From: Hymenobacter cellulosilyticus
GTDB taxonomy: Bacteria; Bacteroidota; Bacteroidia; Cytophagales; Hymenobacteraceae
NCBI RefSeq assembly: GCF_022919215.1
Contig: NZ_CP095046.1
Location: 2,036,501-2,100,500 of the forward strand
DNA: 64,000 nucleotides
Direction of reading: 5' to 3'
Positions 2,165 to 19,521 of this stretch are shown here, in pieces. Within the stretch, counting starts at the first letter, position 1. Every line of letters begins with the position of its first letter. The notes beneath the pieces are model-generated. The model was not told the DNA's origin. It made no database searches and worked only from the letters and a program-made list of their open reading frames with translations. The position numbers and the translations under genes are program-made.

Positions 2165-3799
2165 ATGGTAAAATCCACCCGAATCCTGCTGCTGGCTGCT
2201 GTGGCCGTCCTGTCCTTTCTACCCCGTTTTGCGGCGGCCCAACAAGCTTCCTTATCCAAGGTGTGGGTGCCCGACCTGGGCAACGGTACCTACAAAAACC
2301 CGGTGCTCTACGCCGACTACTCCGACCCCGATGTAGTGCGTGTGGGCGACGATTATTACCTCACCTCGTCTAGCTTCAACGCCGCGCCGGGCTTGCAGAT
2401 TCTGCATTCCAAGGACCTAGTCAACTGGACGATAATCGGGGCGGTATTCACCCAGCAGCCGCCCCAGGCTCGCTACGACCTGCCCCAGCACGGTAACGGG
2501 GTGTGGGCCCCCGCCATCCGCTACCACAAAAAGGAGTTCTATATCTACTACCCCGACCCGGACCTGGGCGTTTTCGTGACCAAGGCCAAAAATCCGGCCG
2601 GACCATGGTCGGCGCCGGTGTGCGTGAAGGCCGCCAAGGGGTGGATTGACCCCTGCCCACTGTGGGACGAAGACGGTAAAGCCTACCTCGTGCACGGTTT
2701 TGCCGGCAGCCGGGCGGGCTTTAAGAGCGTGCTAGCCGTAAGCCGCATGAACCCCGATGGTCTGAGCCTGCTCGGCGACGATGTGCTGGTGTTTGATGGC
2801 CACGAAAACCACCCGACCATCGAAGGACCCAAGTTCTACAAGCGCCAGGGCTACTACTACATTATGGCTCCGGGTGGGGGAGTGCCCACCGGTTGGCAGG
2901 TGGTGATGCGCTCAAAAAACGTGTTCGGGCCCTACGAAGACCGGATTGTAATGGACCAGGGCAAAAGCACGACCAACGGTCCGCACCAGGGCGCCTGGAT
3001 TGACACGCCCTCGGGCGAAGACTGGTTTATGCACTTCCAGGACCAGGGCCCCTACGGCCGTGTGGTGCACCTGCAGCCCATGGTCTGGAAAAACGGCTGG
3101 CCCGTTATCGGTACCGATACCGACGGCGACGGCAAGGGTGAGCCGGTACTTACCTTCCGCAAGCCCGCCAGCAAGGGCAAAGTGGCCATGGCTACCCCGG
3201 CTACTTCCGATGAGTTTGATGGCAACCAGCTAGGCCTGCAGTGGCAGTGGCACGCTAACCCGCAGGTGGGCTGGGCCTTCCCGACCGGAGCCGGCTTCCT
3301 GCGCCTGTACTCGGTGCCCGTGCCCGAGGGCTTCAAGAACTTCTGGCAGGTGCCCAACCTGCTGCTGCAAAAGCTGCCGGCCGAGGTGTTTACCGTCACG
3401 ACCAAGCTGAGCTTTACGCCGCGCTTTGAAGGCGAGAAAACCGGCCTGATTATGATGGGCATGGACTACGCCTACCTCTCGGTGACCAACCAGGGCGGCA
3501 AGCTGCAACTCAGCCAGACCACCTGCCAGAACGCCGACAAGGGCAGTGCCGAAACCACCGGCGCACCCGTAGCCGAAGTGCCGGCCAAGCAGCCCGTGTA
3601 CCTGCGTGTGGCCGTGACGCCGGGCGCCAAGTGCCAGTTCAGCTACAGCCTCGATGGGCAGACGTTTCAGCCCGTAGGCAGCTCCTTTCAGGCCCGGGAG
3701 GGCAAGTGGATTGGCGCCAAAGTAGGCCTGTTCTGCACCCGGGCCGGCAAAACCAACGACGCCGGTGCTGCCGATGTGGATTGGTTCCGGATAGAATAG
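2165..3799 (+). CDS. GH43 family glycoside hydrolase, secreted (beta-xylosidase / alpha-L-arabinofuranosidase type)
   Basis: Predicted exported exo-glycosidase that would remove arabinose or xylose side chains from pectic or xylan oligosaccharides. The ATG start gives a clear signal peptide (about residues 1-25, ending FAAAQQ). The GH43 five-bladed propeller begins at NPVLYADYSDPDVV, where the Asp of SDPD is the expected catalytic base. A Glu in IEGPKFY fits the catalytic acid, and an Asp in GWIDPCPLWDEDG may be the pKa modulator. After about residue 345 a beta-sandwich of the DUF1349 / GH43_C2 type follows, an arrangement common in the GH43 subfamilies that include xylosidases and arabinofuranosidases. 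544 residues is normal for that layout. It has its own terminator downstream. The substrate is inferred from the neighbours, not from the sequence. Confidence 0.9.
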   Translation: MVKSTRILLLAAVAVLSFLPRFAAAQQASLSKVWVPDLGNGTYKNPVLYADYSDPDVVRVGDDYYLTSSSFNAAPGLQILHSKDLVNWTIIGAVFTQQPPQARYDLPQHGNGVWAPAIRYHKKEFYIYYPDPDLGVFVTKAKNPAGPWSAPVCVKAAKGWIDPCPLWDEDGKAYLVHGFAGSRAGFKSVLAVSRMNPDGLSLLGDDVLVFDGHENHPTIEGPKFYKRQGYYYIMAPGGGVPTGWQVVMRSKNVFGPYEDRIVMDQGKSTTNGPHQGAWIDTPSGEDWFMHFQDQGPYGRVVHLQPMVWKNGWPVIGTDTDGDGKGEPVLTFRKPASKGKVAMATPATSDEFDGNQLGLQWQWHANPQVGWAFPTGAGFLRLYSVPVPEGFKNFWQVPNLLLQKLPAEVFTVTTKLSFTPRFEGEKTGLIMMGMDYAYLSVTNQGGKLQLSQTTCQNADKGSAETTGAPVAEVPAKQPVYLRVAVTPGAKCQFSYSLDGQTFQPVGSSFQAREGKWIGAKVGLFCTRAGKTNDAGAADVDWFRIE

Positions 3800-3852: not shown

Positions 3853-4108
3853 GTGTCCGGCTGGTCCGCGCCAAGTAGTAGAGAAATTTTGTTTCTGCGG
3901 GAACCCGGTACTACTGCAATTGCATTTGCAGAAGCCCAGGCTAAACCCACAGCAGTCGAAGCCGGATAGAAAGTGAGTGATTACTCATAAGTGCGGAATA
4001 ATTCAATTTTTGTCTATGTTTCGTAAAACGTACGCCGGGAGCTTAATTCTCTTTAAATATAATTATAAACATAATATTATTGGACTAAATAAATACAAAA
4101 GCTATGGC

Positions 4109-4140
4109 GGCAACGTTGCCGGGAACGTTTGCGCAAATAA
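4109..4140. promoter_or_regulatory. Composite LacI-type operator upstream of susC
   Basis: The first 12 bases, GGCAACGTTGCC, are a perfect palindrome. Directly adjoining is GGGAACGTTTGCGCAAATA, which contains a second AACGTT core and a TTTGCGCAAA palindrome. LacI-family operators (for example PurR, ACGCAAACGTTTGCGT) use this kind of half-site. The same 32-bp arrangement recurs at 15420-15451 with two mismatches, upstream of the CE12-CE8 operon. The inference is that one uronate-responsive LacI-family repressor controls both units; no such regulator gene lies in this window. Confidence 0.65.
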
Positions 4141-4141
4141 A

Positions 4142-4173
4142 AACCCCCGCTGTGTTCCCATTTGCGAGGGGTT
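4142..4173 (+). other. Possible leader hairpin in the susC upstream region
   Basis: AACCCCCGC pairs imperfectly with GCGAGGGGTT around a 13-nt loop immediately after the operator. The stem is followed by AGTGTAA and not by a T run, so it is a weak terminator candidate. It could be an attenuator-like leader element or chance. Confidence 0.25.
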
Positions 4174-4366
4174 AGTGTAAACTTATAGAACCATTCAATC
4201 GGTCAACAATACAAAATCGACTCATTGAACTGATAGGAGTACAAAAAGCATTTTGACCGTTCTGCGCCGGCTACAACTTTCCAGGGGTAGGTTCTTACAC
4301 ACCCGCCGTCAGTTGGCCTGAAACGGTTTCCCAATTGTCATTTTCAAATTCCCACACCTACTTCAA

Positions 4367-7300
4367 ATGAGAAAGCACCTACTGTTCCTCTGGCTGCTGC
4401 TGAGCGTCGCGCTGAATGCAGTTGCCCAGCAGCGCAGCATTCAGGGGGTCGTTCGATCCACTGAGAAAGACGAACCCTTGCCCGGGGTGACGGTGGTCGT
4501 GAAGGGTACCACCAACGGCGCCTCCACGGATATGGACGGCAAGTTCTCCATTAGCCTGCCCGCTTCCACCCAGGACGTAGTGCTGCGCCTGAGCTACATT
4601 GGCTTCGTGTCGAAAGACGTGCCGGTGGGCAGCAGCAACAACGTGACGGTGCAGCTCAGCCCCGACACCAAGGTGATGGAAGACGTGGTTGTAATCGGCT
4701 ACGCTGCCGTAAACCGCCGCGACGTAACCGGCTCGGTATCGTCGGTAAGCGCCCAGCAGATCAAGGACGTGCCGGTAAACTCCGCCGCCGAAGCCCTTTC
4801 GGGCCGTTTGGCTGGTGTGCAGGTTACGGCTTCGGAAGGCCAGCCCGGCTCGGATGTGCGCATCCGGGTGCGCGGTGGCGGCTCGATTACCCAGGACAAC
4901 TCGCCGCTGTACGTAGTAGACGGCGTGCAGCTGGAAAATGCCCTGTCGGTGATTTCGCCCCAGGATATCCAGTCGGTTGACGTCCTGAAGGACGCCGCCG
5001 CTACCGCTATTTATGGTGCCCGGGGCGCCAACGGTGTGGTTATCATCACGACTAAAGGAGGTCGCGAAGGCAAAACCACGGTGGCCTACACGGGCTTCGC
5101 CGGTTTCCGCCGCATTACCAAGACCCTGGACGTGCTGCAGCCCGCCGACTACATCGACTACGCCTACGAGAAGTCGCGCATTTCGGGCGCCGACCAGATC
5201 CGCAGCTTCCGTAACCGCTTCGGCAGCTCTACCTTCCGCGACACCCGCGACTACTCGGGCACTGCTGGCTACGATACGCTGGGCGTGCTGCGCAACTCGG
5301 AGTTCATCAACTGGCAGGACCGGGTATTCGGCCGCGACGCTTTCCAGCAAACCCACAACCTGTCGGTATCCGGCGGGGCCAAGGGCACGACCTACTCCCT
5401 GAGCGTGACCCGCAACGACGAGGACGGCATTCAGCTCAACTCGGGCTTCACCCGCAACCTGGTTAACTTCCGCTTCGACCACAAAGCCAACGACAAGTTC
5501 CGCGTAGGCTTCAGCACCCGCCTCACCGACCAGGCCGTAACCGGCGCCGGCACCTCGGCCGCCGGCACGGGCTCGACCACCAACTCCCGCCTGCGCAACA
5601 CACTGGTGTACCAGCCGCTGGTAATTCCCGGCCAGGTGCCCGAGGGAGTGAGCATCGATGAAAACCCCGACACGGAAGACTTCTTCAACGCTTCAGGCTC
5701 CTTGTCGAACCCTGTGCTGACTATTAACAACGAGTACCGCCGGGATCTGCGCCGCGTGTTCAACTTCAGCGGCAACGCGTCTTACAACATCCTGAAGAAC
5801 CTGACCCTGCGCTCGGTGCTGGGCTTTGATAACACCTACAACCGGGGGGAGCTGTTCTACGGCCAGTACTCGCCCAACACCCGCAACTTCGCCAGCCTGC
5901 CCTACGTGCAGATCGGTACGGGCCAGAACATTACCATCAACCAGTCGAACACGCTGGCCTACAACTTCAAGAAGGACCTGCATTCGTTCGACTTTCTGAT
6001 TGGTGAGGAAATCTACACCCGGAAGAACACCTTCCTGAACGTAACCAGCTACTACCTGCCCAAGGCCATTACGGCCCAGCGCGCCCTGGACAACATTACC
6101 CAGCGCGACCCCAGCGCCCCGAGCACGCCCCAACCGGCTCCTACTACCGGCATCAACGAAAACTCCCGCCTGCTCTCCGGCTTTGGTCGTTTCAACTACA
6201 CCTATAATGAGCGTTACCTGCTGACGGCCACCTTCCGCGCCGACGGCTCGTCGAAGTTCAAGAGCCCAAACAAAGTGGGTTACTTCCCCGCCGTGTCGCT
6301 GGCCTGGCGCATTTCTCAGGAAGACTTTATGCAGCCCTACGCCGCCACGGTTTCCGACCTGAAGCTGCGTTTGAGCTACGGTTTGACGGGTAATAATCGC
6401 ATCAACGACTTCCTCTACGACCCGCTGTTCTCGACGGGCAACAACGGCAACAACTACGCTATCAACGACCAGATTGTGCCCGGTGCCGCCGCTATCTCGC
6501 TGGCTAACCCCAACCTGAAGTGGGAAACCACTGCTTCGACCAACGTGGGTATCGACCTGAGCCTGTTCAACAACCGGGTGCAGTTCACGGCCGACGCGTA
6601 TTACAACAAAACCAGCGACCTGCTGCTCAACCTGGCTATTCCGGCTACCACCGGCTACATCTCCCAGCTGATCAACGTGGGTTCGACTTCGAATCGCGGT
6701 GTGGAACTGCAGCTGAGCGGCACCCCCTGCAAACCCCGGATTTCACCTGGACGGCCAACGCCAACGTGTCGTTTAACCGCAACCGCGTAGAAAGCATCGG
6801 GGGCGGCGAGGCACTGCCGCTGCAGTACTCGGGCTGGGCCAGCACGGCCATTGCCGCCGACTACTTTGTAGGCGTCGGTCAGCCCGTAGGTTTGATGTAC
6901 GGCTACGTGACCGACTTTGAAAGCGGCAACGGCAAAGGCTTCTACGACGCCGACGACTTCTCGGGCTACGTGAACGGCCAGTGGGTGCTTAAGCAGGGCG
7001 TGGTTTCGGACCGCGGCATCACCGGCTTCTCGGCCGCTGGCCAGCAGGTAACACCCGGCACCATCCGCCTGAAAGACATCAACAACGACGGTGTGGTAGA
7101 TGCCAACGACCGTCAGGTTATCGGCAACGCCAACCCCAAGTTTACCGGTGGTCTGAATCAGCAGTTCAACTACAAGAGCTTTGACGCCAGCATCTTCCTG
7201 AACTTTGTGTACGGCAACGATGTGTACAATGCCAACAAGATTGAGCTGACTTCTTACCTGCCCAACTCCCAGCTTAGCAACGGCTTGGGTATCATGAAGG

Positions 7301-7677
7301 ACCGCTACCGCCAGATCGACGAAAACGGCGTGCTGATTACCGACCTCGAAACCACCCGCCGCGTAAACCAGAACGCCAGCATCTGGTCGCCAACGCGCAC
7401 GCTGTTCCCCCACTCGTGGGCCATCGAGGACGGCTCGTTCCTGCGCATCAACAACCTGACCGTGGGCTACACCCTGCCTAAGTCCATCAGCGGCTACGCC
7501 AAGCTGAGTCAGGCCCGCTTCTACGTGACGGTGAACAACCTCTACACCTTCACCAAATACACGGGCTACGACCCCGAGGTGAACACCCGCCGCTCGTCCC
7601 CGCTGACGCCCGGGGTAGACTACGCCGCCTACCCGCGTAGCCGCGCCTTCCTGGCTGGCCTCAACCTTACTTTCTAA
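4367..7677 (+). CDS. SusC/RagA-family TonB-linked outer membrane transporter (one frame break in the assembly)
   Basis: Outer-membrane TonB-dependent pore importing pectic oligosaccharides with its SusD partner. Signal peptide at residues 1-21; carboxypeptidase-D-like regulatory domain at about 25-105 (PLPGVTVVVKGTTNG); plug at about 115-235 with the SusC signature PLYVVDGVQ and DVLKDAAATAIYGARGANGV; the rest is barrel, ending in LAGLNLTF with the terminal Phe usual for outer-membrane barrels. The frame breaks inside a C run at 6723-6727; adding one C restores SGTPLQTPDFTW and joins 4367-6727 to the rest, giving about 1103 residues, normal for the family. The break looks like a base-calling error because everything downstream is conserved. 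susD follows 19 bp after the stop, so the two form an operon. Confidence 0.93.
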
Positions 7678-7696
7678 TACCTGACCCACCCATCCG

Positions 7697-9505
7697 ATGA
7701 AACGCATATTTCGCTCCACAATGGCTGCCCTGGGTATTGTCTGCCTCTCGGGCTTAATGACGGCCTGCAAAGACTTCCTGGAGGTAGAGCCTACCGCAAT
7801 TGATACGTCCGAGGCCGTTTTCAGCACCGTCAGCGGGGCCTACAGCGCCGTAATCGGGGCCTACGCGCCCATGGCCGGCGACGCGGCCTACGGCAACCGT
7901 ATCAGCTGCTACTTCCCCTACGACTCGGAAGACTTCCTGAACGTGCCCACCGGCGACGACGCCGGCGAAGGCCGCCGCGGTATTGCCCGCTACAACTCGA
8001 ACGTAACCAATGCCGACGTGCGCAACGCCTGGAACGCGTTGTACAAGGGCATTGAGCGCGCCAACATCTGCATCAAGTACATCCCGACGATGGCGCAGTA
8101 CAACGGCGGGGCCGACCAGAAGGTGATTCAGCGCCTGCACGGCGAGGCTCTCACGCTGCGCGCCCAGTACTACTTCGAGCTGATCCGCAACTGGGGCGAC
8201 GTACCGGCGCCTTATGAGCCCACCGTGACCGGCCAGGACTTCAACATTCCGCGCACCGACCGCAACGAGATTCTGGACAAGATGCTGGCCGACCTGGAGC
8301 TGGCAGCTACCCTGGTGCCCTGGCGCACGGAAGTTGCCGCCGATGAGCGCATCACCAAGGGTGCCGTGAAGGCCCTGCGCGCCCGCCTGGCGCTGTACCG
8401 GGCCGGCTACTACACCAGCTCCAAAACCGGGGCCGCCGAGCGTGCTTCGGACTATAAGCAGTTCTACGACATCGTACGCCAGGAGTGCGCCGAGCTGATG
8501 GCCAAGCGCGGGGAGCACGACCTGAACCCGAACTTCGAGGAGCCCTTCCGCAGCATTGCCGAGTTGCGCCGCGACGCCAAGCGCGAAATCATGTTTGAAG
8601 TGGCCATGGGCGGTACCGTTAACGGCTCGACCACCGACAGCAAGCTGGGCTACTACAACGGGCCGCGCATCACGGCGGCCTCGGCCAACCTTGGCCTGAG
8701 CAGCGGCGCCATCGTATTGCAGCCGACGTACTTCTACGCCTTCGACTCGACCGATACGCGCCGGGACGTGACCATTGCGCCCTATACTATCAACGCAATA
8801 CCGGCCAAGATTCCGACCAACATGATTACCGCCTACGACGGCAAGTTCCGGCGGGAGTGGAGCACCAACCCCACTATCCGCAGCGGCTCGGCCCAGGCCC
8901 TGGGCTACAACTGGCCCCTGATCCGCTTCTCGGACGTGCTGCTGATGTTTGCCGAAGCCGAAAACGAAGCCACCGGCAGCCCCACGCCCGCTGCCCGCGC
9001 TGCGTTGAAAGAAGTGCGTGACCGGGCCTACCGGAATGCTACGGCCCCGGCCGTGCCAACCGGCTACAGCGAGTTTCAGGCTGCCGTGATGAAAGAGCGC
9101 CACTTGGAGTTTGGCGGCGAAGGCATGCGCAAGTATGACCTGATTCGCTGGAACAAGCTGGGCAGCACTTTCCAGGAAATTAAAACCACGCTGCGCGGCT
9201 GGATTGCCGACCAGACCGGGGGCGGGCAGTACGCCAACATTCCCCTGAACATCTTCTACAACCTGCGTCCGGCCACCGGCACCCCGCCCATCAGCAACTA
9301 CGTGCTGGCCCGCTCGCTCTACCGGCCTTCGCCCTCGGTGGACACGCCTCCGGCTAACACCACCGCGGTGGCCTGGCGCCGGAGCGTAACCGAAGCCCGC
9401 ATCGCCGACATTGCCTCCGGCTACCAGCCCGCCCGGCAGTTGCTGCCCATCCCGGCTGAGGCGCGCAATACCAATAACCAGCTCACGCAGAACGTCAGCT
9501 ACTAA
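7697..9505 (+). CDS. SusD/RagB-family outer membrane lipoprotein
   Basis: Surface glycan-binding partner that caps the SusC transporter. The N-terminus has a lipoprotein signal ending LSGLMTAC, so Cys24 would be lipidated, followed directly by KDFLEVEP, the usual start of mature SusD proteins. The helical TPR-like scaffold is visible in stretches such as GEALTLRAQYYFELIRNWGD. The C-terminal part carries the conserved ERHLEFGGEGMRKYDLIRW block common to RagB/SusD proteins. 602 residues is at the long end of normal. It lies 19 bp after susC. No frame break. The substrate is inferred to be pectic because of the neighbouring esterases. Confidence 0.94.
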   Translation: MKRIFRSTMAALGIVCLSGLMTACKDFLEVEPTAIDTSEAVFSTVSGAYSAVIGAYAPMAGDAAYGNRISCYFPYDSEDFLNVPTGDDAGEGRRGIARYNSNVTNADVRNAWNALYKGIERANICIKYIPTMAQYNGGADQKVIQRLHGEALTLRAQYYFELIRNWGDVPAPYEPTVTGQDFNIPRTDRNEILDKMLADLELAATLVPWRTEVAADERITKGAVKALRARLALYRAGYYTSSKTGAAERASDYKQFYDIVRQECAELMAKRGEHDLNPNFEEPFRSIAELRRDAKREIMFEVAMGGTVNGSTTDSKLGYYNGPRITAASANLGLSSGAIVLQPTYFYAFDSTDTRRDVTIAPYTINAIPAKIPTNMITAYDGKFRREWSTNPTIRSGSAQALGYNWPLIRFSDVLLMFAEAENEATGSPTPAARAALKEVRDRAYRNATAPAVPTGYSEFQAAVMKERHLEFGGEGMRKYDLIRWNKLGSTFQEIKTTLRGWIADQTGGGQYANIPLNIFYNLRPATGTPPISNYVLARSLYRPSPSVDTPPANTTAVAWRRSVTEARIADIASGYQPARQLLPIPAEARNTNNQLTQNVSY

Positions 9506-9541
9506 ACCTGGCTGGCCTGAATGCGGAAAGCGAATGCCCGG

Positions 9542-9571
9542 GCCACGGTCTTCCTGCGAGGAGGCCGTGGC
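9542..9571 (+). terminator. Probable terminator after susCD
   Basis: A GCCACGG / CCGTGGC stem with further pairing inside (TTCCT with AGGA) lies about 36 bp past the susD stop. The T tract behind it is weak (TTGTGGTTT), so termination may be partial. Confidence 0.5.
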
Positions 9572-9649
9572 TTGTGGTTTACGCCCCTCTGTTTTAAGCC
9601 AAGCCAGTGTGCTGTATCCCACTCAGAGTCTACCAGCCGCTGCTTTTTT

Positions 9650-11166
9650 ATGACTTATCTCTCCCAACGATTACTCGGCAGGCTAACTCCGCCGTAGCGC
9701 TGCCCGAGGCCTCCCTGCTGACGCTGCCCGAAAAAGTGCTGCAGTTTGGCACCGGCGTGCTGCTGCGCGGCCTGCCCGACTACCTCATCGACAAAGCCAA
9801 CCGCCAGGGCATTTTCAACGGCCGCATCGTGGTGGTCAAGTCGACCGATGGTGGTGACATCAACGCCTTCAGCCGCCAGAGCGGGCTCTACACCCTGGGC
9901 ATCCGGGGCATTGAGGACGGACAGCAGGTCGAGGAAAACGTGGTGTGCTCAGCCATCAGCCGGGTCTTATCGGCCAAAAGCCAGTGGGCCGAGGTGCTGG
10001 AATTTGCCAAGAGCCCTGAACTGCAGTTGGTCATTTCCAACACGACCGAAGTAGGCATTCAGCTGGTGGCCGACGATGTGCGCCAGTCTCCGCCCCAGTC
10101 GTTTCCGGGCAAGCTGCTGGCCGTGCTCTACACCCGCTGGCAAACCTTCGGCGGCGACAAAACCAAAGGCCTGGTGATAGTGCCCACCGAGCTCATTTCC
10201 GACAACGGCAGCAAGCTGGAATGCATTCTGCTGGAGCTGGCCCACCGCAATGAGCTGGAAGCCGAGTTTATCGACTGGCTCGAAACGGCTAACACCTGCT
10301 GCAACTCTCTGGTGGACCGCATCGTGCCCGGTCGACCCGACGCAGCCATGCAGGCGGCTCTGGAAGCCGAGTTGGGCTACTCCGACGATTTGCTCACGAT
10401 GTCGGAAGTGTACCGGCTCTGGGCCATTGAGGGCGACGAAAAGGTGAAGGCGGTGCTGTCGTTTGAGCAGGTCGACAAGGGCGTGGTGATTCAGCCCGAC
10501 ATCAACCTGTTTCGGGAGCTCAAGCTACGCCTGCTCAATGGCACGCACACGCTCAGCTGCGGCCTGGCTTTCCTCAGCGGCGTCGACACGGTGCGCAGCG
10601 CCATGGAAGACGAGGTGCTGAGCAGCTTCATTACCCACCTCATGCAGGACGACTTGCGGGCCGGCATTCCCTACCCGGTGGCCGAGGACGTGTCGCGCGA
10701 GTTTGGCCGGCAGGTGCTGGACCGGTTCCGCAACCCCTTTATCGAGCACCGCTGGCTGGGCATTACCCTGAACTACTCGGCCAAGCTGCAGATGCGGACC
10801 GTGGCCACGCTGGCCTGCTACGCCGAGCGGAAGCAGCAGGCCCCGCGCTACGCGGCCCTGGGCTTTGCGGCTTATTTACTGTTTATGCGCGCCACCCGCC
10901 AGCAGGAGCACACCTGGTACGGGGCGCTGAACGGCGCTGAGTACCCGATTCAGGACGAAAAAGCCGGCTATTTTGCCGACCTCTGGCAGCGCCTGTCGCC
11001 CGCCGAGCTGGTGAGCACCGTGCTGCGCAACCACACGCTGTGGCAGCAGGATCTGACTCAGCTGCCGGGTTTTGCCGACCAGGTTTCGGCCGACCTGCGT
11101 CAGATGCTGAACCAGGGTGTGTATGCCACCATCAGCAGCTTGCTGAACACGCCGGTTTCGGCTTAA
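9650..11166 (+). CDS. uxaB: Tagaturonate reductase / altronate oxidoreductase
   Basis: NAD-dependent enzyme of the mannitol dehydrogenase superfamily that reduces tagaturonate to altronate in galacturonate catabolism. The body is clear: EKVLQFGTGVLLRGLPDYLIDKAN at the nucleotide-binding end and the central LKLRLLNGTHTLSCG motif of UxaB/MtlD enzymes. The start needs comment. The conserved frame has no ATG and opens only from a GTG at 9607. An ATG at 9650 encodes MTYLSQRLLGRLT in the neighbouring frame and joins the conserved frame (AVALPEASLLTLPEK) if one C is added at 9689-9690. That N-terminus resembles UxaB proteins and the error fits the pattern elsewhere, so 9650 is preferred. It follows susD and probably handles sugars released by the locus. 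Confidence 0.88.
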
Positions 11167-11196
11167 GCAGATAAGCCAAACATGTACTGCTAATCG

Positions 11197-11232
11197 AAAA
11201 GCCTGGGTGGATTCTTCTGCTCAGGCTTTTTT
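11197..11232 (+). terminator. Rho-independent terminator after uxaB
   Basis: AAAAGCCTG pairs with CAGGCTTTTTT around a spacer of about 16 nt, some 30 bp past the uxaB stop. Confidence 0.8.
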
Positions 11233-11259
11233 GGTCAACACTTCTTTCCCCGACTCCCG

Positions 11260-13272
11260 ATGCCGCACCCACGACTGAAACACGTTCTGCTACTCTTGCT
11301 CGGCCTGCTGAGCCTGCAACCGGCCCAGGCCCAGAAGCAGTACGACGTGCTCGACTGGAAAGCCAATGTGTCGCTCAATACGTCTCTGGTGCAGCAGATG
11401 CACCAGCAGTACGACGGGCGCCGCGCGGCTCTGGCCCAGGCCCGGCAGTCGGAGGCGGGCCTGCGGGCCTACCGCGACAGTGCCCGGGCGCGCTTTCGCC
11501 GGATTCTGGGGCCCATGCCGGCCAAAACACCCCTCAAAGCCCGCGTGACCGGCCAGCTGCCCCGCGACGGGTACCGCATCGAGAAAGTGGTGTACGAAAG
11601 CACGCCCAAGCACCACGTGACGGCCAACCTTTACGTGCCCAACGGGTCCAGAAAGAAGCTGCCCGGCGTGCTGCTGTTTTGCGGGCACGAGGCCGAGTCG
11701 AAAGCCACCGAGTCGTACCAGAAAACCGCCATTCTCTTCGCCAAAAACGGCTTTGTGGTGTTCGTCATTGACCCGATTTCGCAGGGTGAGCGGTACCAGC
11801 TGGTAGATGCGGCCGGCAAGCCCCTGACCCGCGGCGGCACCACCGAGCACACCTTGCTCAACAGCGAATCGGCGCTGCTGGGCACCGGCAGCGTGGCCGA
11901 TGAGCTCTGGGACAACGTGCGTGGCCTCGACTACCTACTCACCCGCCCCGAAGTAGACGCCGCACGAATCGGAGCCTTGGGCAACTCCGGGGGCGCCACC
12001 CAAACGGCCTACTTCATCGGCTACGACGAGCGGGTAAAAGTGGCCTCGCTGTGCAGCTACGTGGCCACCGGTGAGCGGGTCCTGGAACTCACCGGCCCTT
12101 CCGACGGCTGCGTGATGATTCCCGGCGCCGGCGCGGCCCGCCTCGATGTGGCCGACTGGCCCATCATGTTTGCGCCCCAGCCCCTGCAAATCCTGGCCGG
12201 CCGCTTCGACTTCGTGGATTACAACATCATCCAGGAAACCTACGCCGAGCTGCGTCAGGTGTACACTGGCCTGGGCCAACCCGAGAAAGTCAGCCTGTTT
12301 ACCTACGACGACGGGCACGGCATTTCCCAACCCAAGCGCGAGGCCGCCGTGCAATGGTTTCGCCGCTGGCTCTACCAGGATAACCAGCCGGTGCAGGAGG
12401 GAAGCCTGGCTACTCTGAAACCCGAGGAGCTGTGGAGTATCCGCACCGGGCAGGTTTCGACGGCCTACAAAGACGAAGTACTGCTGCCCCAGCGCAACCT
12501 AGTTCGGGCGGCCGAGCTGGCCCGCCACCGTCCCAAAGCCGACGCTCAGCACAACCTGCCCGCCCTGATTCGGGAGCAGCTGCGCCTGCCCGCCCAACTC
12601 GACGCACCCGTGGCGGTAGAGTGGAAAGGCGAGGTCCAGACCAAAGGCAACGTGACCCTGCGCAAGCTCATTATCCGGCGTGAGGGCGAAGTCCCGCTAC
12701 CGGCGCTACTGGCCTTGCCCGCCGGCGAAGCACCCGTGACCAAAGTGGTGCTGTGGCTGCCCGAGCGCGGCAAACGTACCCTGGCCGACAGCACGGCCCT
12801 GCTGCAAAGCTGCCTACAGCAAAACTGCGCCGTGCTGCTCGCCGACCTGCGCGGCCTGGGCGAAACGGCCGACCCGGAGCAGTTCAACGACAAGAAGTTC
12901 TACAACAGCGAGTACCGCAACGCCTTGCTGGCCCTACACACCGGGCAGCCGCTGTTGGGGCAGCGCGTGGTGGATGTGTTTATGGCGTTGCGCTTTCTAG
13001 CGCAAACGCCGCGCCTGCAGCCGGCGCCCGTGGAGCTATACGCCACGGGCCGGGCGGCGCTGGTAGCCCAGCATGCCGCTCTGCTCGCGCCCCGCATTAG
13101 TGGCGTCTGGCTTGGGCCGGGTACCATCACGTCGTTTACGCAAGTGCTGGCCCAGCCCACGGCCAAGGACTGGTACTCGCTGGTGCTGCCGGGCGTGCTG
13201 CTGCGCTACGACCTGCCTGATCTGACCACCGCGTTGGAGCAGCAGCAGCGGCTGATTCCGGGGAATAAGTAG
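11260..13272 (+). CDS. Secreted two-domain alpha/beta-hydrolase, probable pectin or xylan esterase
   Basis: Signal peptide at residues 1-24 (LLLLLGLLSLQPAQAQ). The N-terminal alpha/beta-hydrolase (about 90-375) has the nucleophile elbow GALGNSGG with Ser243, a likely acid around Asp317-Asp320 (GRFDFVDYN) and His353 in DDGHGIS, so the triad looks complete. A second alpha/beta-like domain (about 430-670) has YATGRAALV where an elbow would be and lacks a nucleophile serine, so it is probably non-catalytic. The size and layout resemble Bacteroidota esterases annotated as acetylxylan esterase-like, including CE19 pectin methylesterases; family assignment is an inference. It sits between tagaturonate reductase and the uronate symporter, which fits de-esterification of pectin. 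No frame break. Confidence 0.78.
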   Translation: MPHPRLKHVLLLLLGLLSLQPAQAQKQYDVLDWKANVSLNTSLVQQMHQQYDGRRAALAQARQSEAGLRAYRDSARARFRRILGPMPAKTPLKARVTGQLPRDGYRIEKVVYESTPKHHVTANLYVPNGSRKKLPGVLLFCGHEAESKATESYQKTAILFAKNGFVVFVIDPISQGERYQLVDAAGKPLTRGGTTEHTLLNSESALLGTGSVADELWDNVRGLDYLLTRPEVDAARIGALGNSGGATQTAYFIGYDERVKVASLCSYVATGERVLELTGPSDGCVMIPGAGAARLDVADWPIMFAPQPLQILAGRFDFVDYNIIQETYAELRQVYTGLGQPEKVSLFTYDDGHGISQPKREAAVQWFRRWLYQDNQPVQEGSLATLKPEELWSIRTGQVSTAYKDEVLLPQRNLVRAAELARHRPKADAQHNLPALIREQLRLPAQLDAPVAVEWKGEVQTKGNVTLRKLIIRREGEVPLPALLALPAGEAPVTKVVLWLPERGKRTLADSTALLQSCLQQNCAVLLADLRGLGETADPEQFNDKKFYNSEYRNALLALHTGQPLLGQRVVDVFMALRFLAQTPRLQPAPVELYATGRAALVAQHAALLAPRISGVWLGPGTITSFTQVLAQPTAKDWYSLVLPGVLLRYDLPDLTTALEQQQRLIPGNK

Positions 13273-13298
13273 GTGGCGGGAAGGGCCGATCAGGGTTT

Positions 13299-13314
13299 AC
13301 GCAATCGGTTGCGG
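13299..13314. promoter_or_regulatory. LacI-type operator candidate upstream of the SSS symporter
   Basis: ACGCAATCGGTTGCGG is a near-palindrome (CGCAA / TTGCG around TCGG) of the PurR/LacI operator class, 168 bp upstream of the symporter ATG. It shares the CGCAA/TTGCG half-sites, but not the AACGTT core, with the composite operators of this locus. It could be bound by the same or a related regulator. Confidence 0.45.
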
Positions 13315-13481
13315 TAGTTTATGTGGCCTCAGAGAGGGTTAAAACCGGGATTTACCGCTTTATTTAGACTCCCAAGGGTGGAACTCAGAGCGCAGAAACT
13401 TAGCTTTAGCCGACCTTTCCGCGTGCAGTTGGTCCTGGCTCCGCGCTCCACCTCGAATTCCCTACTCTTTCACCGCTTTCA

Positions 13482-15163
13482 ATGAATCAACTCGCCACCC
13501 TAGATTACATTGTATTCTTTGTCTATTTCCTGATTGTATCGGGATACGGCATCTGGATCTACCGTCGCAAAACCGGCCATGATGGTACGGCGGAAGGCGA
13601 CTCCAAGGACTACTTTCTGGCCGAAGGCTCCCTGACCTGGTGGGCCATCGGCTCCTCACTCATTGCCTCCAACATTTCGGCTGAGCAGTTTGTGGGCATG
13701 TCGGGCTCGGGCTTTAAGATGGGCCTGGCCATTGCCACCTACGAATGGATGGCGGCCCTCACGCTCATCATCGTGGCCGTGTTCTTTATTCCGGTGTATC
13801 TGAAGAACCACATCTTCACGATGCCCCAGTTCCTGCACCAACGCTACAACGGCACCGTGGCCATGATTATGGCCATTTTCTGGCTGATGCTCTACGTAGT
13901 CGTCAACCTGACCTCCATTCTGTACCTGGGCGCCATTGCCATCAGCAGCATTGCCGGCCTCAACCTGACCTTCTGCATGTACGCCCTGGCCGTGTTTGCC
14001 GTCATTATCACCCTGGGGGCATGAAGGTAATCGGCTTCACCGACGTAATTCAGGTGTTCTTCCTGATTCTGGGCGGTTTAGCTACAACCTATCTGGCCCT
14101 CGACATGGTGGCCCACCACTACGGGGAATCGGGTGTTATCAGCGGCTTTAGGCTGATGCAGGATCAGGCCGCCGACCACTTCCAGATGATTTTCAAGCAG
14201 GACAACCCCAATTTCATCGACCTGCCGGGCCTGACCGTGCTGCTCGGCGGTATGTGGATTGTAAACCTGAACTACTGGGGTTGCAATCAGTACATCACCC
14301 AGCGCGCCCTCGGTGCCGACCTGCCCACGGCCCGCGCCGGTATTCTGTTTGCGGCTTTCCTGAAGCTGCTCATGCCCATCATCGTGGTGCTGCCCGGCAT
14401 TGCCGCTTACGTGCTTTTCAAGCAGGACATCTTCGGCCCCGAGATGATGCAGGATGGGGAAGTAAACCCCGACCGCGCCTACCCCGTGCTGCTCAACATT
14501 CTGCCCGTGGGCTTGAAAGGCCTGTCCTTCGCCGCCCTGACGGCCGCCGTAGTAGCCTCGCTGGCTGGTAAGGCCAACTCCATTGCCACCATCTTCACCC
14601 TCGACATCTACAAGAAAGTTCTCAACGAAGGCGCTTCGGAAAAGAAGCTTGTCGCTGTGGGTAAGATTGCCGTGGTAGTTGCCATGATTCTGGGCGTACT
14701 GATTGCGCCCCACCTGGGTATCGACAAGAAGGGCGGCTTCCAGTACATTCAGGAATACACCGGCTTCGTGTCGCCGGGTATTTTTGCCATGTTCATTCTG
14801 GGCTTCTTTTGGAAAAAAACGACTTCCAACGCGGCCCTGTTTGCCACCATTGGCGGCTTTTTGCTCTCCATCATGTTCAAGTTCCTGCCCGGCCTCGTGG
14901 ACCTCTCGTTCCTGGCCCCGTTGGGCTTCGCGGTGAAAAGCCAGGCCGGCGTCTACGAAATTCCCTTCCTCGACCGGATGGGCTTCGTGTTCGTCATCTG
15001 CATTATCGTGATGGTCATCATCAGTCTGTTCGAAACCAGCCGCGGCGTGGTAGCCAAAGGTCTGGAAGTAGATGCCAGCATGTTCAAGCCCCAGCGCAGC
15101 TTCACCATCGGCGCCATGGTCATTGCCGTCCTGCTGACGGCCCTGTACACCATTTACTGGTAA
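13482..15163 (+). CDS. Sodium:solute symporter (SSS / SLC5 family), probable hexuronate uptake (one frame break)
   Basis: Inner-membrane Na+-coupled sugar or uronate transporter. The N-terminus DYIVFFVYFLIVSGYGIW is the first helix, and SSLIASNISAEQFVGMSGSG is the conserved SSS helix-2 stretch; about 13-14 hydrophobic segments follow to the C-terminus. The frame breaks in the G run at 14015-14019; one added G gives ITLGGMKVIGFTDVIQV and restores a protein of about 560 residues, normal for the family. The gene is preceded by a LacI-type site and followed by a strong terminator, so it is probably its own transcription unit. Galacturonate or glucuronate as substrate is inferred from uxaB and the pectin esterases nearby. 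Confidence 0.88.
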
Positions 15164-15201
15164 CATCGGTAGGAGGGAAGACCTTCGGTACTTTTGAGCA
15201 A

Positions 15202-15236
15202 GGCGGCTGCACTCTCGTGCAGCCGCCTTTTGTTTT
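15202..15236 (+). terminator. Rho-independent terminator after the symporter
   Basis: Perfect 10-bp stem GGCGGCTGCA / TGCAGCCGCC, 6-nt loop, then TTTGTTTTT. Confidence 0.88.
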
Positions 15237-15257
15237 TCCTATCCTAAAATTTCAGGC

Positions 15258-15355
15258 CGTCATGCTGAGCTTGCCGAAGCATTTCTACCGCTTCGTTGTG
15301 CATGCCTCAGGGATTAGCAGGGCTGTAGAGATGCTTCGGCAAGCTTAGCATGACG
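15258..15355. repeat. Intergenic inverted repeat, family B, complete copy
   Basis: A 25-bp arm beginning CGTCATGCTGAGCTTG and its reverse complement (24/25 identical) at 15331-15355 enclose about 48 bp. A truncated copy of the same arm plus part of the interior (ACCGCTTCGTTG) occurs at 34564. No coding capacity; MITE/REP-like. Confidence 0.75.
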
Positions 15356-15419
15356 TTCTTTTTGTAACAATAAGTACTTGTCTGTTCGCTTCGTGCCACA
15401 CCGAATGACAGTAACTAGT

Positions 15420-15451
15420 GGCAACGTTCCCGGCAACGTTTGCGCAAATAA
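15420..15451. promoter_or_regulatory. Composite LacI-type operator upstream of the CE12-CE8 operon
   Basis: GGCAACGTTCCC followed directly by GGCAACGTTTGCGCAAATA, with the same spacing as the element at 4109-4140 and 30 of 32 bases identical. It ends about 150 bp before the first CE12 start. The repeat of so long an element in front of two functionally linked units is the strongest regulatory signal in the window. Confidence 0.68.
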
Positions 15452-15603
15452 ACTCTTGAAGCTCCTCTTTTCTGGCGGGGAATTGGCCTTACTTGCCTAA
15501 ACGCGCAACCCGGCTCGGGGTACAAGCGGGCTGACAGGCCGGCGGCCACCCCGGATGGGACACGCAGACGAACTTGCCACATCCCACCCTTCACCCGATC
15601 TGC

Positions 15604-16388
15604 ATGGTTCACCGTGTGCTTTCTATGGCCGCCGCGTGCTGCCTGCTGGCCTTGCTGGCCTTCACCGGCGCCCCGCCCGCCGCCATCAAAGTCTACCTCA
15701 TCGGCGACTCTACCATGGCCAACAAGGAGGAAAAAGCCTTTCCCGAAACCGGCTGGGGCATGCCGTTCAAGTACTTCTTCGACGAAACCGTCACCGTCGA
15801 CAACCGGGCCATGAATGGGCGTAGCACCAAGTCGTTCCTGGCCGAAAACCGCTGGCAGCCCGTGGCCGCTGACCTTAAACCCGGTGATTACGTCTTCATC
15901 CAGTTTGGCCACAACGACGAGGTGCCGACCAAGGCCAACTACACTCCCGAAGCCGATTTTCGGGCTAACCTTGTGCGCTTTATCACTGAAACCCGGGCCA
16001 AGAAAGCCACGCCGGTGCTACTCACGCCCGTTGCCCGCCGCAAGTTCGATGCCGCGGGCAAAGTCGAGGAAACCCACGCCGTGTACGCCGGCATTGTGCG
16101 CACCGTGGCTCAGGAGCAGAAAGTAGCCCTGATTGACCTGGACGCCACTAGCCTGGCTTTGCTTCAGCAGTTCGGGGTCGAAAACTCTAAGCTGCTCTTC
16201 AACCACCTAGCCCAGGTGAGCACCCCAACTACCCCGCCGGCCGCGACGACAACACCCACTTCAGTGAGTTGGGTGCCCGCAAGATGGCCCAGCTCGTGCT
16301 GGCCGACATCCGCACCCTCAAGCTGGAACTGGCCGACCGTATTGTGAAGCGAGAAGTCAAAAAGACTGTGGACGCGCAGGCCCGGTAA
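15604..16388 (+). CDS. Rhamnogalacturonan acetylesterase-like SGNH hydrolase, CE12, first copy (one frame break)
   Basis: Secreted esterase that removes acetyl groups from rhamnogalacturonan I. ATG at 15604 gives a signal peptide (VLSMAAACCLLALLAFTGA). The SGNH blocks are present: IGDSTMA with the nucleophile Ser, NGRSTKSFLAENRW, FIQFGHNDE, and DNTHFSELGA with the catalytic Asp and His. The last block is reached only after adding one G at 16215-16216, which turns the end into a close match of the second copy (HPNY ... DNTHFSELGARKMAQL) and gives about 261 residues. Strongly similar to the next gene along its whole length, so the pair is a tandem duplication. It is the first gene after the composite operator. 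Confidence 0.88.
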
Positions 16389-16409: not shown

Positions 16410-16560
16410 TGTCATCCTGAGCCTGCGAAGGACCTTCCTCTTCTAGCCTACTAAGCCAACTACCAGCGTGCTTTAGCTCTGCTCAAGGCTAGACAGGAAG
16501 TACATTGAAGAAAGCTTTGTCACTACTCAGAGCAAGGTCCTTTGCAGGCTCAGGAAGACA
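16410..16560. repeat. Intergenic inverted repeat, family C
   Basis: A 27-bp arm beginning TGTCATCCTGAGCCTGCG is repeated inverted at 16534-16560 with 25 of 27 bases identical, enclosing about 97 bp. It lies between the two CE12 genes, within 35 bp of the second start. No ORF inside. Confidence 0.72.
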
Positions 16561-16594
16561 GAATAATTATTTGTTGTTCCCAAACCCACCCGCT

Positions 16595-17413
16595 ATGCAA
16601 ACATCCTGGCTGAAACGCCTCTGGCCCCTGGCCGTGCTGCTGTTGCTTTCCTTTGCCGGAGCGCCGCCCAAGAAGATCAAGCTCTACCTCATCGGCGACT
16701 CCACCATTGCCCAGAAGGTCAAGCAGACCTTCCCCGAAACCGGCTGGGGCATGCCGCTGCCCACGTTCTTCGACTCGACGGTGGTCGTCGACAACCGGGC
16801 CCAGAACGGGCGTAGCACCCGCACGTTTCTGGCTGAGAACCGCTGGCAGCCCATTGTGGACGCCCTGCAGGAAGGCGACTACGTCTTCATTCAGTTCGGC
16901 CACAATGACGAGTCGGAAGCCCACCCGGACCGCTATACCTCTCCAGCCGACTTCCGCCAGAACCTGCGCAAGTTCGTGACCGAGACGCGGGCCAAGAAAG
17001 GCTACCCGGTGCTAATTACGCCCGTCACCCGCCGCAAATTCGACAAGGAAGGCAAGCAGCAGGAAACCCATGCGCCCTACACTACCGCCACGGTGGACGT
17101 AGCCCGGGAGCTAAAGGTGCCGCTGATTGACCTCGACAAGATGAGCCGGGAGCTGCTGCAGAAATACGGCGTCGAAAACTCCAAGCTGCTGTTTCTGCAG
17201 CTTGAGCCCGGCGACCATCCCAACTACCCCTACGGCCGCAACGACAACACCCATTTCAGTGAGCTAGGCGCCCGCAAGATGGCCCAGCTGGTCATGAGCC
17301 AGGTAGTAGCCCAGAAGCTGCCCCTTTTGTCGGAGCGCATTGCTAAGCCCACGGCCAAAAACGCCGTGCCGCCCGCTAAAACCGGCAAAGACGCCCAACC
17401 CACCACGCCATGA
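16595..17413 (+). CDS. Rhamnogalacturonan acetylesterase-like SGNH hydrolase, CE12, second copy
   Basis: Intact paralogue of the preceding gene, 272 residues. The ATG at 16595 precedes a good signal peptide (LWPLAVLLLLSFAGA); an upstream in-frame start would add a non-secretory leader from inside the repeat, so it was rejected. Catalytic residues: Ser36 in IGDST, the Gly/Asn blocks NGRSTRTFLAENRW and FGHNDE, and Asp217/His220 in DNTHFSELGA. The C-terminal 30 residues are a Lys/Pro/Ala-rich tail that the first copy lacks. Its stop overlaps the next start (ATGA), so it is translationally coupled to the CE8 pectinesterase: deacetylation and demethylation enzymes in one transcript. Confidence 0.92.
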   Translation: MQTSWLKRLWPLAVLLLLSFAGAPPKKIKLYLIGDSTIAQKVKQTFPETGWGMPLPTFFDSTVVVDNRAQNGRSTRTFLAENRWQPIVDALQEGDYVFIQFGHNDESEAHPDRYTSPADFRQNLRKFVTETRAKKGYPVLITPVTRRKFDKEGKQQETHAPYTTATVDVARELKVPLIDLDKMSRELLQKYGVENSKLLFLQLEPGDHPNYPYGRNDNTHFSELGARKMAQLVMSQVVAQKLPLLSERIAKPTAKNAVPPAKTGKDAQPTTP

Positions 17414-18366
17414 GGAAATTCCTAACACTGCTCAGCCTGAGCTGGGTGCTGCTAATCGGCCGCGCCTTTGGCTACGATTTCGTGGTGGCCCAGGACGGCT
17501 CGGGGCAGTACCGCACCGTGCAGGAAGCCTTCAACGCCGTGCCCGACTTCCGCAAGAAAGTCACCACTATCTTCATCAAAAAGGGCGTTTACAAGGAAAA
17601 GCTCATCCTGGCCGGCTCCAAGAATCTGGTCAAGATTATTGGCGAGGACCGGGAAAAAACCATCCTGACCTACGACGACTACAACCAGAAGAAGAACATC
17701 TTCGGTGAGGACAAGGGCACCTCGGGCTCGTCGAGCATCTACATCTACGGCTCCGACTTCTCGGCCGAGAATATCACCTTCCAAAACTCCTCGGGTCCCG
17801 TGGGCCAGGCCGTGGCCGTGTGGGTGGCCGGCGACAAAGCCCGGTTCCGGAACTGCCGCTTCCTGGGCTTCCAGGACACGCTCTACACCTACGGCTACGG
17901 CAGCCGGCAGTACTACAAAGACTGCTACATCGAGGGCACTGTGGACTTCATCTTCGGCTCCAGCACGGCCTTTTTCGAGGACTGCACTATCTTCTGCAAG
18001 AAGGGTGGGGGCTACGTCACGGCTGCTTCCACCCCCGACAGCACCCGCTACGGCTACGTGTTCCAGAACTGCAAAATCACCGGCGACGCCCCGGCAGGCA
18101 GCTTTATGCTGGGTCGGCCCTGGCGGCCCTATGCTAAGACGGTCTACATCAAGTGTGAGCTGGGCGAACAAATCAGCGCCGTGGGCTGGGACCATTGGGG
18201 CAAGGAAACCAACAAGCAAACCGCCTACTACGCCGAGTACCAAAGCAAGGGCAAAGGCGCCCAGCCCAAGCAGCGCGCAGCCTGGAGTAACCAGCTCACC
18301 GACGAAGAAGCCAAGCAGTACACCCGCGAAAAAGTGTTCCGCAACTGGGACCCGACCAAGGACTAG
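17410..18366 (+). CDS. Pectinesterase (CE8), periplasmic or secreted
   Basis: Hydrolyses methyl esters of homogalacturonan. Signal peptide about 1-21 (LLSLSWVLLIGRAFG). Single CE8 right-handed beta-helix with every signature block: DGSGQYRTVQEA, GQAVAV with Gln133, QDTLY with Gln155 and Asp156, GTVDFIFGSS with Asp179, and LGRPW with Arg236. 318 residues, the usual size for a one-domain enzyme. It overlaps the upstream CE12 gene by 4 bp and is therefore in its operon. Unlike the first pectinesterase in the window it has no T9SS sorting domain, so it probably acts in the periplasm. Confidence 0.95.
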   Translation: MRKFLTLLSLSWVLLIGRAFGYDFVVAQDGSGQYRTVQEAFNAVPDFRKKVTTIFIKKGVYKEKLILAGSKNLVKIIGEDREKTILTYDDYNQKKNIFGEDKGTSGSSSIYIYGSDFSAENITFQNSSGPVGQAVAVWVAGDKARFRNCRFLGFQDTLYTYGYGSRQYYKDCYIEGTVDFIFGSSTAFFEDCTIFCKKGGGYVTAASTPDSTRYGYVFQNCKITGDAPAGSFMLGRPWRPYAKTVYIKCELGEQISAVGWDHWGKETNKQTAYYAEYQSKGKGAQPKQRAAWSNQLTDEEAKQYTREKVFRNWDPTKD

Positions 18367-18501: not shown

Positions 18502-19521
18502 ATGCAATTTTTCCCGCTTGTTCTCGCTGCCACGCTGCTGCTTAGTGCTACCCAGCTTCGCGCCCAAACCACGCCAACGGTTCCTGCTACCCCAGCCGCC
18601 AAGCCCGCCCCAACGCCCGCGCCACCGCAAGTCACGCGCATGACCGTGGCCCAGGATGGCTCGGGTGACTACCGCACTATTCAGGAGGCCGTGAATGCCT
18701 CCCGGGATCTGTCGCAGGTAACCGTCACGATTTTCATCAAGAACGGTACCTACCGGGAAAAGCTGGTGGTGCCCTCGCACAAAACCCACGTGACGCTGCT
18801 GGGTGAGAGCAACACCGGCGTCATTATCACCTTCGGCGACTACTCCGGCGACGCCGAAAAGCACAGCACCTACACTTCCCACACCGTGCTGGTGCAGGCC
18901 AACGACTTTACGGCCGAGAACATCACCTTCGAAAACTCCGCCGGACCGGTGGGCCAAGCTGTGGCCCTGCATGTGGAAGGCGACCGGGCCACGTTCCGCA
19001 ACTGCCGGATGCTGGGCAACCAGGACACGCTGTATATGGCCGTCGAGAACAGCCGGCAGTACTACCAGAACTGCTACATCGAAGGCACCACCGACTTCCT
19101 CTTCGGCACGGCCACGGTGGTATTCGAGGGCTGCGAGCTGCGCAGCAAGCGCAACTCTTACATCACGGCGGCCTCCACTACCGCCCACCAGCGCTACGGC
19201 TACGTGCTGCTGAACTGCAAGCTCACGGCTACCGACGAGGCTAAAAAAGTATACTTGGGCCGACCCTGGCGGCCTAATGCCAAAACCGTGTTCATCAACT
19301 GCGAGCTGGGCGCCCACATCACGCCCGCCGGCTGGGACAACTGGCGCAATCCGGAGAATGAGAAAACGGTGTACTACGCCGAATACAACTCCACCGGCCC
19401 CGGCGCCAACGCCAAGGAGCGCGTGAAGTGGGCCCGCCAGCTCACGGCCAAGGAAGCCAAAAAGTACACGCTCAAAAACATCTTCGCGGGCGGCGCAGGC
19501 TGGGAGCCAGCCCGGAAGTAG
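18502..19521 (+). CDS. Pectinesterase (CE8), second single-domain copy
   Basis: Pectin methylesterase, 339 residues. Signal peptide 1-21 (LLLSATQLRAQ), then a Pro/Ala/Thr linker of about 25 residues before the catalytic helix, which the neighbouring CE8 lacks. Signature blocks: DGSGDYRTIQEA, GPVGQAVAL with Gln152, QDTLY with Gln174 and Asp175, GTTDFLFG with Asp198, LGRPW with Arg254. Clearly a paralogue of the preceding gene but quite diverged (DFLFG against DFIFG), so the duplication is old. Separated from it by 135 bp holding a degenerate repeat, so it may have its own promoter. No frame break. Confidence 0.94.
   Translation: MQFFPLVLAATLLLSATQLRAQTTPTVPATPAAKPAPTPAPPQVTRMTVAQDGSGDYRTIQEAVNASRDLSQVTVTIFIKNGTYREKLVVPSHKTHVTLLGESNTGVIITFGDYSGDAEKHSTYTSHTVLVQANDFTAENITFENSAGPVGQAVALHVEGDRATFRNCRMLGNQDTLYMAVENSRQYYQNCYIEGTTDFLFGTATVVFEGCELRSKRNSYITAASTTAHQRYGYVLLNCKLTATDEAKKVYLGRPWRPNAKTVFINCELGAHITPAGWDNWRNPENEKTVYYAEYNSTGPGANAKERVKWARQLTAKEAKKYTLKNIFAGGAGWEPARK

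Follow-up and report, generated by a model that had tools for sequence, protein, structure and literature searches.

What switches the pectin genes of Hymenobacter cellulosilyticus, and does it do so by repression or by activation? The question arises from a 64,000-nucleotide stretch of contig NZ_CP095046.1 (positions 2,036,501 to 2,100,500, here called the window), in which a composite DNA element lies once upstream of a susC gene and once upstream of a gene for a CE12-type esterase. The original prediction took this pair for the operator of one uronate-sensing LacI-family repressor, possibly bound as two dimers, that controls uptake and de-esterification together. We find the idea of a regulon well supported and the idea of a repressor probably wrong. 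The best explanation, which we consider rather likely from sequence analysis, is that one LacI-family pectin regulator binds the element and activates the pectin genes from it.

The two copies, described beforehand as a 32-bp pair at 4109-4140 and 15420-15451, lie at those positions and agree at 30 of 32 of them. We derived a 27-base search pattern, AACGTTNCCGNNAACGTTTGCNCNAAT, from both copies and allowed up to 3 mismatches. In the window it matches three times, at both copies and at a 3-mismatch reverse-strand match overlapping copy 2, and it gave 0 matches in 100 shuffles of the window; the claim that the pair is unique there holds. The long element is clearly significant in the window, unlike its 18-bp core alone, for which 6 matches against a mean of 1.81 expected, a number reached by 5 of 100 shuffles, leave significance unclear. 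Distances to the start codon are about 226 bp (susC) and 153 bp (CE12-type gene), much as predicted, and the reported exchange of G and C between the copies is real: it equals the reverse complement of the inner 18 bp, and both forms were found on opposite strands. The parts of the two copies are as follows, with extents taken from the wider alignment described below.

4108..4141, + strand: element copy 1, 34 bp, upstream of susC (extent from 123 unique sites at orthologue loci)
4109..4120, + strand: dyad 1, GGCAAC/GTTGCC, with a G-N4-CG-N4-C core; center near -75.5
4121..4132, + strand: dyad 2, GGGAAC/GTTTGC; center near -63.5; its equivalent is the sole dyad at sites of a paralogous regulator (L033 type)
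4133..4141, + strand: A-rich tail, GCAAATAAA, conserved outside the search pattern
4178..4185, + strand: putative -7 box of susC, TAAACTTA, offset 69
15419..15452, + strand: element copy 2, 34 bp, before the CE12-type gene, with its inner 18 bp in the opposite orientation to that of copy 1
15489..15495, + strand: putative weak -7 box of the CE12-type gene, TTACTTG, with 3 of 5 key bases

Across the 6.09-Mb genome the same pattern gave 17 matches, 7 of them exact, and its reversed control gave none. We kept 14 as element-like sites and dropped C1:1980934 (beside the LacI gene L028), C1:2051914 (the reverse overlap of the CE12-type site), and C1:3468386; the sites at 474711, 4885601, and 2837442 are the less secure, weak end of the list. 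With the target taken, by our choice, as the first long open reading frame (ORF) in the element's direction, 11 of the 14 sites precede genes with a pectin role. As anticipated for a uronate regulon, sites stand before kduD-kduI, before pectate lyases, and beside a lacI gene, and those before susC, pectinesterases, and the CE12-type gene back the proposed joint control of uptake and de-esterification by association. The targets are listed by site.

C1:2035698: pectate lyase/PelZ-like (partial PelZ match)
C1:4468065: pectate lyase, gene split in the assembly; in H. lucidus (L050) the ORF that follows the element has partial matches to PelZ and to the pectate lyase PDB 9buj
C1:1843964: pectate lyase (PF00544)
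C1:4048950: pectate lyase (PF00544)
C1:474711: PelZ-like (weak PelZ match, 5.5e-8)
C1:2035832: pectinesterase (PF01095)
C1:2837442: pectinesterase
C1:2051923: GDSL/CE12-type esterase
C1:4466766: kduD-kduI
C1:4477738: GH28
C1:2040612: susC of the window pectin locus
C1:5216055: a second susC, outside the 11
C1:4472442: secreted protein with no known family beyond a type IX secretion system (T9SS) tail, outside the 11
C1:4885601: Gfo/Idh-type oxidoreductase, outside the 11

The sites at C1:2035698 and C1:2035832 form a divergent pair about 640-800 bp before window base 1. The secreted T9SS protein that follows an element (L038:7299-8405; L048:12466-13506) has no Pfam match beyond the tail and no PDB relative by sequence, and it is a candidate for a new pectin-related protein.

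Of the 10 LacI-type genes that exceed the cut-off in this genome, only one, matched at C1:4466933, adjoins any of the 14 sites.

C1:4466921-4467943: LacI-family regulator gene, 340 amino acids, outside the window, flanked by the kduD site and the 4468065 site of the pectate lyase

Its product has an N-terminal LacI helix-turn-helix (PF00356, 48.3 bits against a cut-off of 27) and a C-terminal periplasmic-binding-like sensor domain (PF13377, 1.3e-35; PF00532, 1.2e-32); among solved structures, CcpA and PurR are closest to it in sequence. From 67 related loci we used 56 (70-98% identity; L048-L102 plus L105) and left out 11 at 27-34%; these are loci rather than species, with H. negativus appearing twice, and they come mostly from Hymenobacter, plus Solirubrum, Arsenicibacter, Larkinella, Fibrella, and one Flavobacterium record. 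At least one element is present in 55 of the 56, the sole miss being the Fibrella locus L105. A pattern fixing most core positions matched 125 sites, 111 exactly and the rest with 1 mismatch, and reversed sequences gave 0. In 43 of the 56 loci lacI is preceded by a site no more than 400 bp away.

The element and the gene also occur together across genomes. Among 98 relatives, 44 have both orthologue and element, 1 the orthologue only, 3 the element only, and 50 neither; for the 54 relatives with a KduI match, the corresponding counts, which likewise ignore kinship, are 44, 1, 2, and 7. An orthologue was scored at 58% identity or higher or on a strong partial match, and an element at up to 1 mismatch, both lists being compiled by hand; two genomes with partial LacI matches (G005, G032) and two with one internal stop (G083, G098) were scored as having the orthologue, and some 1-mismatch element matches may belong to the L028-type paralogue. 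The element is thus found in related species, where it had been proposed to look for it, and the association (the adjoining gene, the 55 of 56 loci, and the co-occurrence) backs the idea of one LacI-family regulator. Of the 42 ORFs that follow the element in relatives, 6 encode GntR-type regulators with a periplasmic-binding domain (five of them identified: L147, L164, L166, L178, and L180), which suggests a second-tier regulator; the downstream ORF was here the longest one starting within 420 bases after the element, and its frame may be wrong.

Alignment of the 123 unique sites defines a conserved, asymmetric unit of 34 bp, positions -1 to 32, with the consensus YG RSAWCGTTCCCG RYAWCGWTTGC RCAAAWAAA: two LacI-type dyads with centers 12 bp apart, then an A-rich tail. 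The search pattern fixed most core positions, limited positions 1 and 13 to A/G and 4, 16, and 19 to A/T, and left -1, 0, 2, 9, 14, and 24-32 free. Although free, position 0 is a G without exception (123 of 123), and this G completes the box 1 dyad G-N4-CG-N4-C, a form that box 2 repeats 12 bp downstream. Both dyads fit the LacI operator form (even palindrome, central CG, outer G/C at -6/+6), a fit in which most positions were preset by the pattern and only the outer G of dyad 1 is unbiased; at most sites each dyad is an imperfect palindrome. Box 1 was present at 12 bp in 114 of 116 matches to box 2 plus the A-rich tail, a search that did not ask for box 1. The two adjacent dyads of the original prediction are backed by form and spacing. 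Of 152 unique sites, 118 have C-C or C-T at positions 9 and 14, 16 have a purine-pyrimidine pair, 13 have purine-G, none has C-G, and 5 have some other pair. The copy at 4109 is among the 13 purine-G sites, and its inner 18 bp is reverse-complemented relative to the common form. Recognition of the core thus seems symmetric, and the two boxes are not independent.

We derived a putative promoter box, TAANNTT, by reading the aligned sequences downstream of the element, where it lies near offset 69. The geometry set comprised 139 sites (the 125 above plus the 14 of the own genome), reduced to 91 non-redundant ones whose downstream DNA is less than 60% identical. In these 91, columns 69-76 lean to TAANYTTA and columns 46-47 to TT, and exact TAANNTT falls at offsets 69 (20 sites), 70 (11), 68 (1), 79 (2), and 80 (8), against 0.16 per offset elsewhere. 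For a held-out set, 60 sites were chosen from the relatives' match list and 17 already seen were removed. The remaining 43, some of whose promoters are orthologous to used ones, have the exact box at 69 (8), 70 (6), and 68 (1) and once at each of ten other offsets; 9 of the 43 have no box with 4 of 5 bases at offsets 60-91. The 39 held-out sites with downstream DNA less than 60% identical to any used site hold 11 boxes at 68-70. Among the 14 sites of the own genome, only those of susC and kduD have an exact box (2 of 14, offset 69); at six others a box at 68-70 matches 4 of 5 bases. We also tried the Bacteroides -7 consensus TAnnTTTG and set it aside, with 1 match on the element's strand and 10 reverse-strand downstream matches in the 139 sites.

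Flavobacterial sigma-A -7 boxes cover -12 to -5 (PMC9723704). Taking offset 69 as -12 on that scale puts the element at about -82 to -49 and the dyad centers at about -75.5 and -63.5. With a putative promoter at a fixed offset downstream, the element probably has an activator-like position, about 49-82 bp upstream of the start, and on this point the predicted repressor is probably wrong. The boxes at 79-80 lie about one helical turn further and suggest that a one-turn shift is tolerated; as this class is absent from the held-out set and comes mostly from one orthologous promoter, helical phasing is only suggested.

A second LacI gene, at C1:1968482, is 42% identical to the pectin LacI and adjoins the site GTAAACGTTTACGTAAATAAA. 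Such L033-type sites keep dyad 2 and the tail, with A at the pattern-free positions 31 and 32 in 21 and 19 of 23 same-genus sites; box 1 is not conserved, and TT stands at 74-75 in 17 of the 23, a count made post hoc after reading the sequences and including three sites from near-identical genomes. The set covers 23 of 43 same-genus matches, with 7 loci from other families left out; in the reversed control, the scan gave 3 matches within the genus and many outside. Exact TAANNTT is not enriched at the paralogous sites (30 loci), where the box differs. These sites suggest that dyad 2, tail, and promoter distance may form a common platform to which box 1 is a pectin-specific addition. Three genomes (G008, G030, G046) have KduI without the pectin LacI orthologue and carry L033-type sites on KduI's contig; the paralogue may have taken over there. 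Upstream of a further LacI gene, L028 (C1:1980518), a double AACGTT site with a 12-bp distance lies, as judged by eye, directly against a TATCTTTG box, a repressor-like geometry. A third LacI gene, L031 (C1:973517), has the long palindrome CAATTGTGCAAACGTTTGCGCAATTG upstream.

From the observed element, targets, LacI association, and promoter-box spacing, we infer that this LacI protein binds the element, that two dimers bind, that binding activates, and what kind of effector is sensed. The regulator encoded at C1:4466921-4467943 would bind two adjacent dyads, 12 bp from center to center, whose inner 18 bp would work in either orientation and are followed by the A-rich tail. Measured from the sigma-A-type -7 box, the dyads would be centered near -75.5 and -63.5, and the tail would cover about -55 to -49. 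The bound protein would most likely contact RNA polymerase in a class-I-like manner, perhaps through the alpha C-terminal domain on the tail, and in the presence of a pectin breakdown product the regulator would switch the pectin genes on.

Several points weigh against this explanation. LacI-family proteins are mostly described as repressors. One relative (G064) has the orthologue without a site, three (G016, G053, G088) have a site without the orthologue, the reversed-pattern control across the 98 relatives gave 1 match (G039), and the co-occurrence counts take no account of shared ancestry. The exact box at 68-70 occurs in only 32 of 91 sites and 15 of 43 held-out ones and is degenerate in most; in the own genome only 2 of 14 boxes are exact, and that of the CE12-type gene is weak. 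The 79-80 class appears at 0 of 43 held-out sites, and its ten promoters comprise eight on one orthologous GDSL gene, one on a related gene (L062, which also has a box near 69), and one on a SusC-type gene (L090). Finally, standard structures would lead one to expect a clash between two dimers 12 bp apart, following the argument in PMC4052901 for distances of about 13 bp, at which overlapping dimers cannot interact. A fuller form of the explanation, in which a LacI lineage of Hymenobacter and its relatives are class-I activators of carbohydrate genes and the pectin member sits on an obligatory, invertible 24-bp double operator with two dimers sharing one major groove, is offered tentatively.

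Alternatively, the same LacI would bind as a single dimer centered on the CC/GG between the boxes, with the AACGTT boxes as half-sites of an 18-bp even palindrome, an arrangement compatible with activation that we regard as doubtful. A CpG center is a usual feature of LacI even palindromes (PMC4052901), both orientations of the inner 18 bp are found, and positions 9 and 14 vary together, with C9-G14 in none and purine9-G14 in 13 of the 152 sites. Positions 9 and 14 are, however, mostly non-complementary (C-C or C-T in 118), dyad 2, at an unchanged distance from the promoter box, is the sole dyad in the paralogous regulon, and a dimer centered 6 bp off would face approximately the opposite side of the helix.

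Classical repression, with LacI lacking inducer and two dimers on the double operator keeping the promoters off, is possible from the element's position but unlikely overall. LacI-family sugar regulators are known mostly as repressors. Double sites are common in the family, standing before about 20% of regulated operons (PMC4052901). Yet the element lies upstream of the putative -33 and -7 region, repression needs no fixed distance to a box, and the L028 double site, directly against its TATCTTTG box by eye, shows a contrasting, repressor-like layout. Finally, another regulator (AraC-type, hybrid two-component, or GntR-type with a periplasmic-binding domain) acting on 12-bp direct repeats, with lacI a mere neighbor or target, is very improbable: pectin sites of Bacteroides HTCS_Rgu-1 are indeed two 12-bp direct repeats with a 9-bp spacer (PMC3878776) and GntR-type genes make up 6 of the 42 ORFs after the element in relatives, but the own genome's 42 AraC-type domains are all more than 10 kb from the 14 sites, the nearest at about 14 kb, both of its only two GntR domains are more than 70 kb from any of them, and the boxes are contiguous LacI-type dyads that track the LacI orthologue.

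The pectin locus of the window has the following genes.

18..2075, + strand: pectinesterase with T9SS tail (PF01095, PF18962)
2165..3799, + strand: GH43 with C2 domain (PF04616, PF17851)
4367..7677, + strand: susC, two frames in the assembly (4367-6790 and 6520-7677; PF07715 and PF00593 in the first piece)
7697..9505, + strand: susD (PF07980, PF14322)
9607..11166, + strand: tagaturonate reductase, uxaB-like, downstream of susC (NF002969, 586.7 bits, cut-off 359)
11260..13272, + strand: AXE1-type esterase (PF05448, 2.5e-07)
13482..15163, + strand: sodium:solute symporter (PF00474 match covers 13745-15163; 13482-14024, in another frame, is a putative part)
15604..16347, + strand: GDSL esterase, CE12-type (PF13472; partial match to the pectin acetylesterase PaeY)
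16505..17413, + strand: GDSL esterase (PF13472)
17410..18366, + strand: pectinesterase, CE8 (PF01095, 1.8e-73)
18502..19521, + strand: pectinesterase, CE8 (PF01095, 7.6e-81)

The first pectinesterase begins before the window: its genome match starts at C1:2036053, after the site at C1:2035832, in an open frame of 886 amino acids. The second susC piece, 6520-7677, has no Pfam match and was assigned by position and by eye. The CE12-type gene, whose name comes from the original prediction, is listed as an ORF from a TTG at 15574 and has an ATG at 15604. Several pectin genes are split across frames in the assembly (susC, the symporter, the pectate lyase after C1:4468065, and the pectinesterase after C1:2837442), through either assembly error or real decay; the pectate lyase has single-frame relatives (L050). 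Window positions 15259-15354, immediately before the CE12-type element, contain an inverted repeat whose arms are 25 bases long, with a third copy of the arm at 34565-34589; the repeat looks like a repetitive extragenic palindromic (REP) sequence or a miniature inverted-repeat transposable element (MITE).

Known systems offer partial parallels. Class-I activation by CRP occurs from a site at about -61.5. The pectin element resembles such sites in its center near -63.5, its place upstream of the -35/-33 region, and its fixed promoter-box spacing, with the promoter here putative; unlike CRP, the protein belongs to the LacI family, its polymerase contact is putative, and tolerance of a one-turn shift is only suggested. 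Within the LacI family, CcpA and Cra/FruR are described as activating from upstream sites, with single operators. CcpA is the closest solved structure to the pectin regulator by sequence, whereas CcpA and Cra/FruR are global regulators of other phyla. In the same phylum, Bacteroides KdgR, UxaR, and UxuR are LacI-type uronate regulators (PMC3878776, PMC4052901) that control galacturonate or glucuronate catabolism, a likeness drawn from their descriptions; the Hymenobacter regulon also takes in secreted lyases, esterases, and SusC and has a 34-bp double site. Bacteroides HTCS_Rgu-1 (PMC3878776) shares pectin control and 12-bp direct repeats and differs in its AraC-like DNA-binding domain and 9-bp spacer; around the own sites, AraC-type domains are absent out to 10 kb. 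Distances between LacI double sites peak at 13, 22, and 32 bp, with overlapping pairs at about 13 bp before 110 operons (PMC4052901). Tight double operators of about 13 bp are already known and unexplained there; as at the E. coli GntR sites of gntKU, the dyads here are closer than two dimers should fit, and they differ in their 12-bp distance, nearly obligatory presence, A-rich tail, and fixed promoter-box distance. Titles and abstract starts of the open-licence PMC literature yielded no LacI-family pectin activator or matching element, an absence that is weak there.

If the activator explanation is true, a family known mainly for its repressors would have been turned, in Hymenobacter and some relatives, into a dedicated activator of plant-wall digestion, and the cytoplasm would be where the signal is sensed, in place of membrane-bound SusR or hybrid two-component (HTCS) systems. 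The regulon also flags candidate pectin genes, such as the secreted protein of no recognized family. The same explanation, if true, would supply more than 100 predicted natural cases of tightly overlapped LacI sites, a puzzle stated in 2014 (PMC4052901). Should the reading of an activator lineage be true, this unexplained overlapping mode of LacI binding would serve as an activation platform.

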